A stretch of 53,981 nucleotides of DNA, from contig CP070823.1 of the NCBI GenBank assembly GCA_020344375.1, forward strand, positions 2,215,776-2,269,756, read 5' to 3'. Shown one piece after another: positions 23,846-47,967 of this stretch. Positions within the stretch are counted from its first letter, which is position 1. Every line of letters starts with the position of its first letter. The DNA is from Gemmatimonadota bacterium. Its GTDB lineage: Bacteria; Gemmatimonadota; Gemmatimonadetes; Palauibacterales; KS3-K002. The notes beneath the pieces are model-generated. The model saw only the letters and a program-made list of their open reading frames with translations. It was not told the DNA's origin and searched no databases. Position numbers and translations under genes: made by a program.

Positions 23846-23919
23846 TGGGCGCGCCTGGACTCGAACCAGGGGCCTCTGCCTTGTAAGGGCAGCGCTCTCG
23901 CCAGCTGAGCTACGCGCCC
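23846..23919 (-). tRNA. tRNA-Val (anticodon UAC)
   Basis: A full 74-nt cloverleaf on the minus strand: acceptor stem GGGCGCG/CGCGCCC is perfect, D-arm GCTC/GAGC, anticodon stem CTGCC/GGCAG with loop CTTACAA (anticodon TAC), and T-arm CCTGG/CCAGG with loop TTCGAGT. The discriminator is A, and CCA is not encoded. It reads GUA and, with modification, other valine codons. Confidence 0.96.
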
Positions 23920-41577: not shown

Positions 41578-41606
41578 ACTATAGTAAGGACTAACGCCGC
41601 GGTCAA
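41578..41606 (-). promoter_or_regulatory. Predicted sigma-70-type promoter of the chemosensory operon
   Basis: Minus-strand TTGACC (41606-41601) and TATAGT (41583-41578) are exactly 17 bp apart, a near-consensus housekeeping promoter. The TGA of the rluD stop lies inside the -35 hexamer. The predicted start near 41571 leaves a leader of about 64 nt before cheW. The AT-rich stretch 41571-41590 stands out from its surroundings. Confidence 0.75.
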
Positions 41607-42580
41607 CTCGTTCGCCGCGCCCACTCCACGGCCGCTGCCAGGTCCCGCGGCAGCGGTGCGGAGAACTCCAGCAGTTGCCCCGTCAACGGGTGCGGGAACC
41701 GGAGCTCGGCGGCATGTAAGAACTGCCGCCTCACCCGGCGTGCCAGCTCCTGCGGCCAGCGTCCCTCGAGGCCACGCTCCCAGCCGGCCGCGTACTGCCG
41801 ATCGCCTACGACCGGGTGGCCGATGTGACGCAGGTGGACGCGGATCTGGTGGGTCCGACCCGTCAGCAGACGCACACGGAGAAGGTCCGCCGCCTTCCAA
41901 CGCTCTAGCCGCTCGATCTCGGTGACCGCCGGTCGCGCCCCCGGAACCACGGCCACGCGCTTCCGGTCGCGTCGGTGCCGGCCGAGCTCAGCCTCGACAC
42001 GTAGCTTGTCGTCGCTCAGGTGCCCCCAAGACGCCGCCAGATAGCGCCGAAAGATGACCCGCCGTGCGAGCGCATCAGCCAAGCGACGGTGAGCCCTCTC
42101 CTGCTTCGCTACGATCACCAGACCTGAGGTATCCTTATCCAGGCGATGGACGATTCCGGGGCGGCGTGCGCCTCCGATCGGCGAGAGCTGGCCGACCCTG
42201 TGCAGCAGCGCGTTCACCAGGGTACCCCGGGGGTGACCTGGTGCCGGGTGAACGACCATCCCGGCCGGTTTGTTGACGACGAGAAACCCCTCGTCCTCAA
42301 ACAGCACGTCCACCGGAATGTCCTGCGGCTCGGCGACCGTTGGTTCCGGTGGTGGCACCTCGACCACGATCGTCTCGCCAGCTTCCGGAACGTGGCTCTT
42401 CTTCGGCACGCGATCGGCAATGCGAACGCGGCCCGCTTCGATCAGAGACGCAGCATGAGAGCGCGAGAGGGAGAGCTTCTCGGCAAGATAGCGGTCGAGC
42501 CGCTGCCCGGGCGGCTCATCGACCTGGATCTGATAGGCTACGAGTCCGTCAGGCCCCTCAGTTCTCTCTACTCTTGTCAC
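41603..42580 (-). CDS. rluD: 23S rRNA pseudouridine synthase, RluD family
   Basis: A 325-residue RluA/RluD-family enzyme: N-terminal S4 domain (QRLDRYLAEKLSLSRSHAAS), catalytic motif RRPGIVHRLDKDTSGLVIVA with the active-site aspartate, and LLTGRTHQIRVHL near the C-terminus. RluD modifies helix 69 of 23S rRNA; close paralogues cannot be ruled out from sequence alone. I use the GTG at 42580, giving a 23-nt overlap with lspA. The frame is open beyond it but that part lies inside lspA. Confidence 0.93.
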   Translation of the reverse strand: MTRVERTEGPDGLVAYQIQVDEPPGQRLDRYLAEKLSLSRSHAASLIEAGRVRIADRVPKKSHVPEAGETIVVEVPPPEPTVAEPQDIPVDVLFEDEGFLVVNKPAGMVVHPAPGHPRGTLVNALLHRVGQLSPIGGARRPGIVHRLDKDTSGLVIVAKQERAHRRLADALARRVIFRRYLAASWGHLSDDKLRVEAELGRHRRDRKRVAVVPGARPAVTEIERLERWKAADLLRVRLLTGRTHQIRVHLRHIGHPVVGDRQYAAGWERGLEGRWPQELARRVRRQFLHAAELRFPHPLTGQLLEFSAPLPRDLAAAVEWARRTS

Positions 42581-43094
42581 GGTCGCGACGCTGGTCCTCC
42601 GCCCAGAGCGAGGCCAGGAGCAGCACCGCGCCGATCGTGACCGCCGTGTCCGCGATGTTGAAGACCGGCCAACGAAGACTCCCGATCCCAAAATCGAGAA
42701 AGTCGACCACTCCATGCGCGGACCGAAGCCGATCGATCACGTTGCCCAGCGCTCCTCCGGCGATGGCCCCGATCGCGAACAGCCTAAGTCGATCGTCTGC
42801 CGTTGTGTGCCGATACATCACGATGAGGACGGCGAGCGCGATAAACGCAAGGCCCAGGAAGATGAACCGGGAGTACGGACCCAGGTGTAGGCCGAATGCG
42901 GCTCCAGGGTTGTGAATGTAGGTCAGGCGAAAGAAGTCGCCGAAGACCGGGATCGACTCTGTGATAAGGAGCGTGCGCTGGACCAGGTACTTCGTGAAGA
43001 GATCCAGCACGAGGATGGCAGCAGCGGTTCCGGCGAAGGCACCCAGCTTGTCCCGCAGCGACACCGCGTTCGCCAGCCCACTCGGCTTCTCCAC
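42558..43094 (-). CDS. lspA: Lipoprotein signal peptidase LspA
   Basis: LspA cleaves signal peptides of prolipoproteins after lipidation. Four membrane helices and both catalytic aspartate regions are visible: GNVIDRLRSAHGVVDFLDF and FNIADTAVTIG. IHNPGAAFG is the conserved first loop. The start is uncertain: GTG at 43094 (178 residues) fits the family, with GTG at 43064 as an alternative. Confidence 0.95.
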   Translation of the reverse strand: MEKPSGLANAVSLRDKLGAFAGTAAAILVLDLFTKYLVQRTLLITESIPVFGDFFRLTYIHNPGAAFGLHLGPYSRFIFLGLAFIALAVLIVMYRHTTADDRLRLFAIGAIAGGALGNVIDRLRSAHGVVDFLDFGIGSLRWPVFNIADTAVTIGAVLLLASLWAEDQRRDRDKSREN

Positions 43095-43116
43095 TTGCCC
43101 AGCGCCCGGATAGCCG

Positions 43117-43503
43117 TCAGGAGCCACTGTTCTCCTCGCGCTCCTTGCACTGGATGCACAGCCGCGCGTGAGGCAACGCGTCGAGGCGCTCGAGACCGAT
43201 GTCGGCGCCGCACTCCTCACAGAAACCGTACTGATCGGGCGTCCTGTAGAGTCGGCGCAGCGCCTGGTCAATATGATAGAGCAGTCGCCCTTCCTTGCTG
43301 GCAAACAAGAAGGCCTTTTCCCGCTCCATCGCATCGGTTCCCTGGTCAGCCATGTGGAAGCTGTAGGCCGAAAGATCCCCGTCTGAGCCCTGTAGGGTAT
43401 CCGAGAACGACTCGTCAAACTGCGCCAGTTGCTTGATGATCTTCTGTCGCTCTTCTAAAAGGCGCTGCTCGAAGTGCGCCAGATCCTTCTTCTTGAGTGG
43501 CAT
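43117..43503 (-). CDS. DksA/TraR-family zinc-finger protein
   Basis: A 128-residue protein with an N-terminal coiled coil (LAHFEQRLLEERQKIIKQL) and a C-terminal Cys4 finger, CEECGADIGLERL followed by CIQC. DksA-type proteins enter the RNA polymerase secondary channel; the Firmicute counterpart at this locus, YlyA, is also of this family. Its coiled-coil tip, which decides DksA activity, cannot be judged by eye. The ATG at 43503 has AAGGGA six bases upstream, so I prefer it over the GTG at 43518. Confidence 0.88.
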   Translation of the reverse strand: MPLKKKDLAHFEQRLLEERQKIIKQLAQFDESFSDTLQGSDGDLSAYSFHMADQGTDAMEREKAFLFASKEGRLLYHIDQALRRLYRTPDQYGFCEECGADIGLERLDALPHARLCIQCKEREENSGS

Positions 43504-43552
43504 TGTTGTTCCCTTCACTCGCTGATCCAGTCAGCTCTACGCCAAAGCTGGC

Positions 43553-46504
43553 TCACCTGACCTGCACACCGATCACGGCCTCACGCCCGTCCAGCCGGAT
43601 CTTCTTCATATGTTCGTATCCGTTGCCTTGCGGAGGTTCCGGGCTGATCTCAACCTCCACCGCCAGGACCTCACTCGCGATATAATCGCGGTGAGCTTCT
43701 GCTGCAGAGGTCACCTCCGGCGCCCCAAAAATACCCAATCGGACCCGGTCGTCCAGTTCGAGCCCCGCCTCGCGCCGGAGCCGCTGAATGCGGTTCACCA
43801 GCTCGCGGGCAGTGCCTTCGAGCCTGAGTTCGTCGTCCACTTCGGTGTCCAGACCGACCTGGATGCCCGCCTCGGAGAGCACCTTCAGACCTGCCAGCTG
43901 GGCCGGATCGTCGACGAAGCCTATCTCCCTAACGTTAAGCTCGTCTCGTATGATCCCCAACACCTCCTCGCCCAGCCGCGCCGCCTGCCCACCGGGAACC
44001 ACCCCGACCAGCTGGCGGAGCGGTTGGCGAACCCGGATTCCCGCCGCTTCCCGGGCCGCACGGCCCATGCCGGCCAGCCGCCTCCCGAGCTCCATCGCCG
44101 CTTCCAGCGCCTCGTCCCGTCGGGCGTCCGCCAGCGGATACCGCTCCAGATGCACGGAGGTTCCGCCGGTCAACTCCCGATGGATCCAGTCGCTCACGAA
44201 TGGTACCATGGGTGCCAGCAAACGGCAGACGGTCAACAGCGCCTCCCAGAGCGTGCCGAAGGCCGCGTCCATAGTCTCCCGCGTCGCGGCCCGCGTGCCC
44301 CAGAAGCGCTGGCGTGAGCGTCGCACGTACCAGTTCGACAGATCATCCACCACGAATTCACCGATCCGGCGGATCGCGTGAGTGACGTTGTACCCGTCCA
44401 GGTCGGCCCGGCAGTCCGCGACCAGCCCGTCAAGCCGCGCGAGCAGCCACCGGTCCAACACCGGCCGCTCACCGCCAGCCGGGCTTCGCTCGGGCGTCCA
44501 GCCCTCGATGTTCGCGTAGAGCTCGAAGAACCGATAGGTCGCCAAGAGGGTGCCGAAGAACTTGCGCCGAACCTCGGCAATCGCTTTGGGATCGTGACGC
44601 TTCGGCAACCACGGGTTGCTGACCGAGAGGAAGTAATAGCGGACTGCGTCGGCACCGAACTCGCCGATGGCGTCCCACGGATCCACAACATTGCCGCGGG
44701 ACTTCGACATCTTGATTCCTTCGGCATCGAGCACCAGATCGTTCACCACGACGTTTTCATAGGGCGACCGGTCGAACAGCACAGTGCTGATGGCCAGCAG
44801 CGAGTAGAACCAGCCGCGGGTCTGCTCAACTCCTTCGGCGATGAAGTCAGCCGGGAACTGTTCCTCGAAGGTCTCCCGGTTCTCCATCGGGTGGTGCCAC
44901 TGGGCGAACGGCATGGACCCGGAATCGAACCAGGTATCGATGACCTCGGGCGTGCGCCGCATCCTCCCACCACACTGCGAGCACTCCCACTCAACCGTGT
45001 CGATGAACGGCTTGTGCGGGTCGAAGCCGGGGCTAACCTCGATTCCCGCACGTTCGGCGAGCGTGCTGTAGCTGCCGATAACCTCGATATGCGAAGCGTC
45101 TCGATCGCAGATCCATACGGGCAGCGGCGTGCCCCAGTAGCGTTCGCGCGAGAGTGCCCAGTCAACGTTGTTCTCGAGCCACTCCGCCATGCGGCCCCGT
45201 CCGATTTCCGACGGATGCCAGCCGACCGCAGCGTTGTTCGCCAGTAGCTGGTCCTTGACCGCCGTTGTCCGCAGGTACCAGGAATCGCGGGCGTAGTAGA
45301 GTAGCGGCGTATTGCAGCGCCAGCAGAAGGGATAGGTGTGCGTGTAATCCGCAGCCTTCCAAAGCTGGCCTGATTCCTCGAGCGCTTCGATGATCTTCGG
45401 ATCGGCGTCCTTCACGAAGACGCCCGCCCACCGCGTGACCTCCGGGTTGAAGCGACCTTCCTCATCGACCAGGTGGTGCATCGGCAGACCCAGCTCGACG
45501 CCCAGGTCGTAGTCGTCCTGGCCGTACATGACCGCGGTGTGCACGATCCCGGTCCCCTCGTCGGCGGTAACGAAATCGGCGGTCGCCACCAACCAGCCGT
45601 TCTGCCTGCCGACGACATCCGCGAGGAACGGGAACAGCGGCTCGTAGCGCAGTCCCTCGAGCGCCCCGCCGGGCAAGATCTCCAGGACCTCGTATCCTTC
45701 ACCCAGCACCTCGTCGGCCAGCCGTTCGGCGAGGTAGTAGATCTCGTCACCAACGCGCACTTTCACGTAGGCGATCATCGGGCTGACAGCCAGAGCGATG
45801 TTACCCGGCAAGGTCCACGGCGTGGTGGTCCAGGCCAGCAGGTACTCGCCCGGGCGACCCTCGATCGCAAACTTGACCGTCACCGCCGGCTCGGTGACGT
45901 CCTCGTAGCCCATGGCGACCTCGTGGCTCGACAGACCGGTCCCACACCGCGGGCAGTAGGGAACGACCTTGTGCCCGCGGTACAGTAGGCCTTTCTCGTG
46001 GAACCGGGAGAGTGCCCACCAGACGCTCTCGACGAACTCCGGCGAGCAGGTGATATAGGCACGCGAGTAATCGAGCCAGAACCCGATTCGCAGCGAAAAC
46101 TTCTCCCAGTCTTCCTTGTAGGTGAAGATGTGCTCCCGGCACACCTCCGCGAACCGCTCGACGCCGATCCTTTCGATCTCCGGCTTGCCAGAGATTTCGA
46201 GTGCCTTCTCCGCCTCCACCTCTACGGGTAGGCCGTGCGTGTCCCATCCGGCGATGCGTGTGACCGATCGGCCTCGCATCGTCTGGTAGCGGCAGAACGT
46301 GTCCTTGAGAGTACGCGAGATTACGTGGTGGATGCCGGGCCGGCCGTTCGCCGTCGGCGGTCCCTCATAGAAAACGAAGGGCTCGCCGTCTCGGGTGAGC
46401 TCCAGCGAGCGCTGGAAGGTATTCTCCTGCTCCCAGGCCGCCAGAACCTCCTCCTCCAGAAGGGTCGGGTTCTCAGGAATTTCCCGGTAGTGCTTCTCGC
46501 CCAT
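43553..46504 (-). CDS. ileS: Isoleucyl-tRNA synthetase, type 2 (eukaryote-like)
   Basis: IleRS charges tRNA-Ile and edits valine. The 983-residue protein has the class I catalytic core with KMSKSRGNVV (about residue 598), the editing-domain motifs LLAWTTTPWTLPGN and DEGTGIVHTAV, and NVDWALSRERYWGTPLP. The first signature is not HxGH but GIHH (57-60, in NGRPGIHHVIS). The C-terminal region lacks the zinc-binding tail of the common bacterial type 1 enzyme and is of the type 2 form. It begins 9 nt after pnp without a visible SD, so coupling to pnp is likely. It is the only IleRS gene in the window. Confidence 0.96.
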   Translation of the reverse strand: MGEKHYREIPENPTLLEEEVLAAWEQENTFQRSLELTRDGEPFVFYEGPPTANGRPGIHHVISRTLKDTFCRYQTMRGRSVTRIAGWDTHGLPVEVEAEKALEISGKPEIERIGVERFAEVCREHIFTYKEDWEKFSLRIGFWLDYSRAYITCSPEFVESVWWALSRFHEKGLLYRGHKVVPYCPRCGTGLSSHEVAMGYEDVTEPAVTVKFAIEGRPGEYLLAWTTTPWTLPGNIALAVSPMIAYVKVRVGDEIYYLAERLADEVLGEGYEVLEILPGGALEGLRYEPLFPFLADVVGRQNGWLVATADFVTADEGTGIVHTAVMYGQDDYDLGVELGLPMHHLVDEEGRFNPEVTRWAGVFVKDADPKIIEALEESGQLWKAADYTHTYPFCWRCNTPLLYYARDSWYLRTTAVKDQLLANNAAVGWHPSEIGRGRMAEWLENNVDWALSRERYWGTPLPVWICDRDASHIEVIGSYSTLAERAGIEVSPGFDPHKPFIDTVEWECSQCGGRMRRTPEVIDTWFDSGSMPFAQWHHPMENRETFEEQFPADFIAEGVEQTRGWFYSLLAISTVLFDRSPYENVVVNDLVLDAEGIKMSKSRGNVVDPWDAIGEFGADAVRYYFLSVSNPWLPKRHDPKAIAEVRRKFFGTLLATYRFFELYANIEGWTPERSPAGGERPVLDRWLLARLDGLVADCRADLDGYNVTHAIRRIGEFVVDDLSNWYVRRSRQRFWGTRAATRETMDAAFGTLWEALLTVCRLLAPMVPFVSDWIHRELTGGTSVHLERYPLADARRDEALEAAMELGRRLAGMGRAAREAAGIRVRQPLRQLVGVVPGGQAARLGEEVLGIIRDELNVREIGFVDDPAQLAGLKVLSEAGIQVGLDTEVDDELRLEGTARELVNRIQRLRREAGLELDDRVRLGIFGAPEVTSAAEAHRDYIASEVLAVEVEISPEPPQGNGYEHMKKIRLDGREAVIGVQVR

Positions 46505-46513
46505 GTCGATATG

Positions 46514-47353
46514 TCAGGACAGGCGGGCCACCACACCTCTTATCAAGCGGGTCAGCTTCGGCTCCGCCTCGTTCGCCACGCGGATGATCTCCTCGACGCT
46601 CGCTGGCTTCAGAGCGTCCGGCAGACAGCTGTCAGTGATGATCGATACGCCGAGGACCTTCATGCCGCCGTGGACCGCCACAATGACCTCCGGCACCGTG
46701 GACATCCCCACCACATCGGCGCCAATCAGACGCAGAAACCGATATTCGGCGCGGGTTTCCAAGTTCGGCCCGGGGACCGCCAGGTACACTCCGCGGCGCA
46801 GGGTGATCCGTTCGTCCCTGGCCACCTCGAGCGCCAGCCGCTGAAGCTCCAGGTCGTAGGGCTCCGACATGTCGGGGAAACGCGGGCCGAGCTGCTCCAG
46901 GTTCGGCCCGATGAGCGGGTTGTCACCGAGCAGGTTGATGTGGTCGGCAATCAACATGAGATCGCCCACGTCCCACATAGGATTCATGCCGCCGCAGGCA
47001 TTGGAGACGATGAGTACCTCCGCCCCCAAGTCACGCATCACGCGAACCGGAAACGTCACCTGTTGCAGGGAGTAGCCTTCGTACAGGTGAAACCGCCCCT
47101 GCATGGCCACGACCGGCTGGCCCGCCAGGTCGCCGAGGAGCATCCGCCCGCTGTGCGTCTCTACCGTGGGCACCGGAAAGTCCGGGATCTCCTCGTACGG
47201 AATGATCGTTTCTGGCGTGATCTCCTCGGCCAGTGCACCTAAGCCCGTCCCCAGGATGATCCCCACGCGCGCCTGGTAACCCGTGCGAGTCCTGATCGCA
47301 TCACCGGCGCTTCGGATCCGCTGGACCAGCTCTTCGCCGCTCCAGCGTTCCAT
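46514..47353 (-). CDS. Purine nucleoside phosphorylase (trimeric PNP/MTAP family)
   Basis: A 279-residue phosphorylase: phosphate loop IILGTGLGAL, QGRFHLYEGY, VSNACGGMNPMWDVGD, GPNLETRAEYRF with the base-binding glutamate, and MSTVPEVIVA. The base-specificity position, Asn in mammalian PNP, reads Asp241 in IITDSCLPD, closer to the aspartate of MTA phosphorylase. Substrate range (6-oxo or 6-amino purines) is therefore open. It shares one base with the divIVA stop (TGATG) and is an insertion in the otherwise conserved divIVA-ileS order. Confidence 0.93.
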   Translation of the reverse strand: MERWSGEELVQRIRSAGDAIRTRTGYQARVGIILGTGLGALAEEITPETIIPYEEIPDFPVPTVETHSGRMLLGDLAGQPVVAMQGRFHLYEGYSLQQVTFPVRVMRDLGAEVLIVSNACGGMNPMWDVGDLMLIADHINLLGDNPLIGPNLEQLGPRFPDMSEPYDLELQRLALEVARDERITLRRGVYLAVPGPNLETRAEYRFLRLIGADVVGMSTVPEVIVAVHGGMKVLGVSIITDSCLPDALKPASVEEIIRVANEAEPKLTRLIRGVVARLS

Positions 47354-47967
47354 CAGCTGTCATCCTCCTGCTCGCCCTCAGTGACCAGCGACGACAGCCA
47401 TTCCCCCTCCCTGGCCTCCGCTTGCTCCGCCGGCTCCGCCGCCTGCGCCGGTGTCTGGCCCGACGTCTCGACCCGTGTCCCCGCAGCCGGAACATCGATC
47501 GGCTCGCTGAGCCGCGCCTCCTCCACCTCGAGCTCCGAGACGTAGCGCTCGAGCAGGGTTCGGAACGCGCGGACGAATTGGCGCCTTCGGGCCTGCAGCG
47601 CCTCGATCTCCCGTCCGATCTCCCGGTAGGCCCGCTGCCCTTCCTCAATGATGCGTTCCGCCTGGCTTTGAGCCTCCCGGCGCAGCAGCTCGGCCTCACG
47701 GTTCGCCTGAGCCTGTGCCTCAGAGCGAAGCTGTTGGGCGGTGACGAGCGCCTCATTCAGCGCCTTTTCGCGCTCCCGATAGGATGCCACCTGCTCCTGC
47801 AGATGTTCCGCGCGTTCAGTCAACGCCACATTCTGCTTAACGAGCTCCTCGAGACGCTCGGCGACCATGTCGAGAAAGTCGTCGACCAACTCGGTGTCGT
47901 AGCCTCGAATGGTGCGCCGGAAGTCGCCCTTCTTCTTGCGCACATCGAGTGGTGTCAAGTCAATCAT
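47353..47967 (-). CDS. divIVA: DivIVA-domain protein
   Basis: A 204-residue protein with the N-terminal DivIVA lipid-binding motif (LTPLDVRKKKGDFRRTIRGY, then DTELVDDFLDMV) followed by a long coiled coil to about residue 150 and an acidic Pro/Ala/Glu tail. DivIVA proteins sense negative membrane curvature and recruit pole or septum partners in Gram-positives; in diderms their role is less clear. It lies between yggS and pnp, overlapping yggS by 4 nt. Confidence 0.9.
   Translation of the reverse strand: MIDLTPLDVRKKKGDFRRTIRGYDTELVDDFLDMVAERLEELVKQNVALTERAEHLQEQVASYREREKALNEALVTAQQLRSEAQAQANREAELLRREAQSQAERIIEEGQRAYREIGREIEALQARRRQFVRAFRTLLERYVSELEVEEARLSEPIDVPAAGTRVETSGQTPAQAAEPAEQAEAREGEWLSSLVTEGEQEDDS

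Follow-up and report, generated by a model that had tools for sequence, protein, structure and literature searches.

The isoleucyl-tRNA synthetase encoded by ileS in this Gemmatimonadota genome can be read, with a probability of about 0.93, as a type 2 enzyme (IleRS2) that has the class I HXGH signature in its known GXHH form and is probably the sole housekeeping IleRS of its bacterium, combining a phylum-wide motif and a predicted insensitivity to mupirocin with the loss of a unit from its C-terminal domain. The swapped motif is a known resistance-type variant common to nearly the whole phylum, and the genome is ordinary in this respect. The C-terminal deletion, which was overlooked in the preliminary description of this DNA, is the only unusual feature that we found in the enzyme. 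Features of the window, that is, the whole stretch of 53,981 nucleotides that was analysed, are listed in Table 1.

Table 1. Positions in the window of ileS, its motifs and domains, and its neighbours.
Feature	Coordinates	Strand	Basis or remark
ileS, type 2 isoleucyl-tRNA synthetase (IleRS2), 983 aa	43553..46504	(-)	translation, phmmer, Foldseek, NCBIfam
Swapped form of the class I HXGH signature, GIHH at residues 57-60	46325..46336	(-)	translation; alignment A3
KMSKS signature (residues 598-602), canonical	44699..44713	(-)	translation, alignment A1
D331, invariant Asp of GxxDDY motif, CP1 editing domain	45512..45514	(-)	invariant column in alignment A1
Deletion junction (residues 871/872), specific to the genus, ~68 aa missing	43891..43892	(-)	
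Remainder of C-terminal DUF5915 domain: residues 869-981, aligned to profile positions 88-193 of 195	43562..43900	(-)	
DksA/TraR-type zinc-finger protein, downstream neighbour of ileS	43117..43518	(-)	
lspA, signal peptidase II; domain residues ~122-276	42558..43418	(-)	listed ORF overlaps DksA/TraR gene; true start further downstream
RluA/RluD-family pseudouridine synthase	41603..42715	(-)	listed ORF; true start probably downstream
Purine nucleoside phosphorylase (PNP), upstream neighbour of ileS	46514..47353	(-)	
DivIVA	47353..47967	(-)	

The reading frame of ileS (46504-43553, minus strand) is open over 983 codons without interruption; the N-terminal part of the protein is FVFYEGPPTANGRPGIHHV, and GIHH lies within EGPPTANGRPGIHH. 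In phmmer and Foldseek searches the enzyme groups with P. megaterium IleRS2 (PmIleRS2) and with the Thermus and yeast enzymes, IleRS1 scoring far lower, and it exceeds the cut-off of the NCBIfam ileS equivalog (875 bits vs 621) while staying far short of that of the MupA/MupB exception models (825.6 and 778.5 bits vs 1900). The AlphaFold model (mean pLDDT 91.2) matches PmIleRS2 with a Foldseek E of 2e-103 and a TM of 0.86, as against an E of 1e-60 for PmIleRS1. Its nearest solved structures are those of P. megaterium IleRS2 (8c8u, 8c8v, 8c8w and 8c9d), of which 8c8w is a hyper-resistant HIGH-motif mutant. The Cys4 zinc (CPRC-type) motif is absent from the C-terminus, which is of the DUF5915 type instead and retains the second half only.

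The preliminary description placed a type 2 IleRS with GIHH at residues 57-60 (46336-46325), and these positions are exact; the KMSKS signature and the editing aspartate are intact. G57, H59 and H60 are invariant in a 37-row alignment. By homology to the D333/D334 mutants (PMC4861432), D331 would be the site of post-transfer editing, which is probably kept because this residue is invariant. A reading error that conceals an HxGH motif at 46325-46336 was considered and ruled out, because a congeneric contig (L007, genome G297; 93% identical in amino acids and 88% in nucleotides over 6,089 alignment columns, ~6 kb) and all family members read carry GIHH as well.

Surveyed across related genomes, GxHH is the rule in the phylum. 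It was present in every family and order relative whose IleRS motif was read, and a strict DNA pattern (E-G-P-P-x-A-N-[GA]-x-P-[GA]-x-H-H), searched in 297 Gemmatimonadota genomes, matched 262. Ten of the 35 genomes without a match were read individually; eight still have GxHH, preceded by DGPP or TSNA (G099, G078, G086, G045, G063, G092, G102 and G029), and two, both of family f9 (G097 and G178), have IleRS1 instead of IleRS2. A pattern for canonical HxGH in either IleRS type, which matches E. coli IleRS1 and a Paenibacillus IleRS2 as controls, was found in a single genome of the 297 (G178, an IleRS1), a near-empty count that is not absolute because HAGH and HTGH enzymes (L101 and L103) escape the pattern. 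Of 91 IleRS frames, among which a few overlapping loci represent a single gene, 88 have GxHH and the three HxGH frames are plasmid enzymes of Bacilli. In the phylogenetic tree the enzyme belongs to a family clade with full support, which is nested in a clade of 30 Gemmatimonadota IleRS2 rows (support 99); another class of the phylum, f11, is placed outside this larger clade. The trait is inherited phylum-wide and was not recently acquired.

Some variants were encountered beside this survey. In family f9, where IleRS1 replaces IleRS2, one IleRS1 (L095, from G097) reads HLGT and the other HLGH; a change of the fourth histidine of IleRS1 (to Gln) is mentioned for laboratory-selected mutants only (PMC10485003), and HLGT could be a base error. 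In a collection of plasmids (L098-L103), the IleRS2 genes of Rhodococcus and Nonomuraea, located on large replicons, have GTHH and GVHH, and those of Paenibacillus, Sutcliffiella and the MupA copies have HXGH.

A link between a GxHH swap in type 2 IleRS and very strong mupirocin resistance had also been put forward in the preliminary description, and it agrees with published work; the reading is correct yet already known, since Brkic et al. published both in 2023, the G/AXHH swap of IleRS2 as well as the millimolar mupirocin Ki linked to it (PMC10485003). In that study G/AXHH occurs in 86 of 163 sampled IleRS2, a natural ALHH (AXHH) enzyme has a mupirocin Ki of 6.6 mM, exchange of the motif moves the Ki roughly 200- to 800-fold, and an IleRS1 that carries GXHH is dead. 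For the GXHH enzyme of S. griseus, a Ki in the mM range and the rescue of E. coli exposed to mupirocin are on record (PMC10485003, PMC4861432). The motif of IleRS2 is displaced, which gives the catalytic role to the histidine at its third position, a residue that would clash with the drug (PMC10485003). The main-text discussion of that paper does not include the Gemmatimonadota, and our literature search on IleRS of this phylum returned nothing relevant and no assayed enzyme. By reference to these homologues, His59 would take the catalytic role of the first histidine of HXGH in the displaced motif, its side chain would clash with mupirocin so that a Ki in the mM range is expected, and the organism should be mupirocin-insensitive at the IleRS target.

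What favoured the motif in the phylum is a separate matter. GIHH may be a neutral mark of the lineage that IleRS2 tolerates, with resistance a side effect that was never selected in the phylum, an account of the motif's origin that is compatible with the identity of the enzyme given above. The near-universality of the motif in the phylum, its presence in 86 of the 163 IleRS2 of Brkic et al., and the moderate resistance of the IleRS2 class even without G/AXHH (PMC10485003, Table 1) are in keeping with a neutral mark, whereas Brkic et al. infer selection by natural antibiotics; we regard neutrality as a serious contender with somewhat less than even chances.

The position of the gene was described beforehand as that of a housekeeping ileS, before dksA-like and lspA genes, and this is borne out: a DksA/TraR zinc-finger gene, lspA and rluD lie downstream, and PNP and DivIVA genes upstream, in a divIVA-(PNP)-ileS-dksA/traR-lspA-rluD cluster. 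Neighbourhoods of the divIVA-ileS-lspA-rluD type are a common housekeeping setting, and in E. coli ileS likewise adjoins lspA. The sole Rfam match in the window is a tRNA at 23846-23919, and none of the leader elements in Rfam lies close to ileS. The suggestion that this may be the only IleRS also holds so far: protein, family-model and DNA-pattern searches of the assembly (3,039,607 bp in a single contig, 87.56% complete) found no second IleRS over the ileS cut-off, and the other strong class Ia matches in the genome are ValRS and LeuRS only. The same assembly yielded 19 tRNA loci but no tRNA-Ile by Rfam model, pattern or BLAST, which we take as a sign of an incomplete assembly or an insensitive search rather than of biology. 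Given the missing tRNA and the incompleteness of the assembly, a second ileS may have escaped notice, but the phylum survey makes a missed copy unlikely. That the GIHH enzyme is an accessory copy beside a canonical housekeeping IleRS, as the coexistence of ileS1 and ileS2 in some bacteria (PMC10485003) and the incomplete assembly might allow, is very improbable given the housekeeping cluster, the genome without another IleRS, and the absence of the HxGH pattern from 296 of 297 phylum genomes.

The window ileS is therefore probably the housekeeping, and probably the only, IleRS gene of its bacterium. An IleRS2 with the published motif, in a housekeeping position and with no second IleRS found, makes natural insensitivity to mupirocin likely by analogy, and since GxHH is phylum-wide, the predicted insensitivity is most likely shared by almost all Gemmatimonadota and not special to this organism. 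The published resistance-type active site is hereby extended to environmental bacteria that make up nearly an entire phylum, an extension that predicts intrinsic mupirocin insensitivity across the phylum and leaves the window genome unremarkable in that respect.

With the G/AXHH IleRS2 of Deinococcus radiodurans (ALHH) and Streptomyces griseus (GXHH) (PMC10485003) the enzyme shares the IleRS2 fold, the swap of the first and third HXGH positions, the KMSKS signature and a housekeeping role, but unlike them it is without ~68 aa of the C-terminal domain. P. megaterium IleRS2 (8c8u, 8c8v and 8c8w; Foldseek E 1e-103 to 1e-100) shares 41% identity across the full fold but has a natural HVGH motif, is a second IleRS beside IleRS1, and keeps the block at residues ~859-926. 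The plasmid enzymes MupA and MupB are likewise of type 2 and of the mupirocin-resistant class, but are acquired and plasmid-borne, with a canonical HTGH in the MupA copy that was read (L103). IleRS1 (E. coli, family f9) catalyses the same reaction but has a zinc-binding C-terminus and an HXGH signature, and the window enzyme is 26% identical to PmIleRS1 at the fold level.

The deletion is a single clean in-frame gap at residues 871/872, common to the window enzyme and its congeneric sister L007. The DELN and EGxAR motifs are spaced 42 aa apart in these two and 107-115 aa apart in all others in which both motifs were recognised, the ~68-aa block is present in every other full-length IleRS2 measured, and the Pfam DUF5915 match covers profile positions 88-193 vs 2-185 in the nearest relative. 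The absent block carries a conserved (K/E)PNFxxLGPxFG segment. In AlphaFold models, the window enzyme and L008 are alike as far as a strand at ~858-863, beyond which L008 has an additional strand (870-876), two helices (878-898 and 901-910) and three strands (914-918, 921-925 and 930-936), and both models then resume with the same strand-strand-long helix. On these models the deletion would remove exactly one beta-alpha-alpha-beta-beta-beta unit, and the remaining fold appears to tolerate the loss, with a pLDDT of ~90 across the junction. An assembly artefact, a thought prompted by the possible metagenomic origin of both assemblies with the gap, is hardly credible when these assemblies have the same in-frame gap despite a nucleotide difference of 12%, the frame remains open, the ends of the gap fit domain boundaries in the models, and the block is not found elsewhere in the genome. 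Nor does the genome appear to supply the block in trans, a 78-aa query having a best match of E 0.03. The deletion is real and, within the sample covered, confined to the genus; it is new here and a modest point of interest.

Judged by its position, the missing block is probably the IleRS2-specific insertion into the C-terminal subdomain SD2 that is noted in a legend of the IleRS2 crystal paper. We call the block IleRS2-specific on the strength of that legend, because the register of an hhalign alignment of IleRS2 with IleRS1 is ambiguous within the block. A literature search on DUF5915 gave nothing relevant. Yeast IleRS 1-984, which keeps the junction domain and loses the last C-terminal tRNA-interacting domain, leaves tRNA uncharged (PMC7955072), and C-terminal changes can therefore matter; the window enzyme differs in that its end is retained and the loss is confined to an internal unit. 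We favour, with some reserve, the view that this genus lives with a shortened sole, essential IleRS2 that has lost a C-terminal tRNA-binding unit (probably the SD2 insertion), so that either its recognition of tRNA-Ile is changed or the unit is dispensable. The excision offers a natural test of the purpose of a conserved C-terminal unit of IleRS2.

Other short IleRS frames were considered as further deletions and rejected: the contigs of G053, G194, G270 and G147 stop just past the matched region, and the frames of G176 and G180 run to the contig end.

The LeuRS of the same genome, which lies outside the window (G000:C1:934667-937117; L005, L127), has HVGN in place of HXGH, the fourth histidine being replaced by Asn. 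A literature search found no paper with the term for this LeuRS motif. HVGN might be ordinary for the phylum, and the motif was HVGN or HIGN in 17 of the 17 family and order relatives read.
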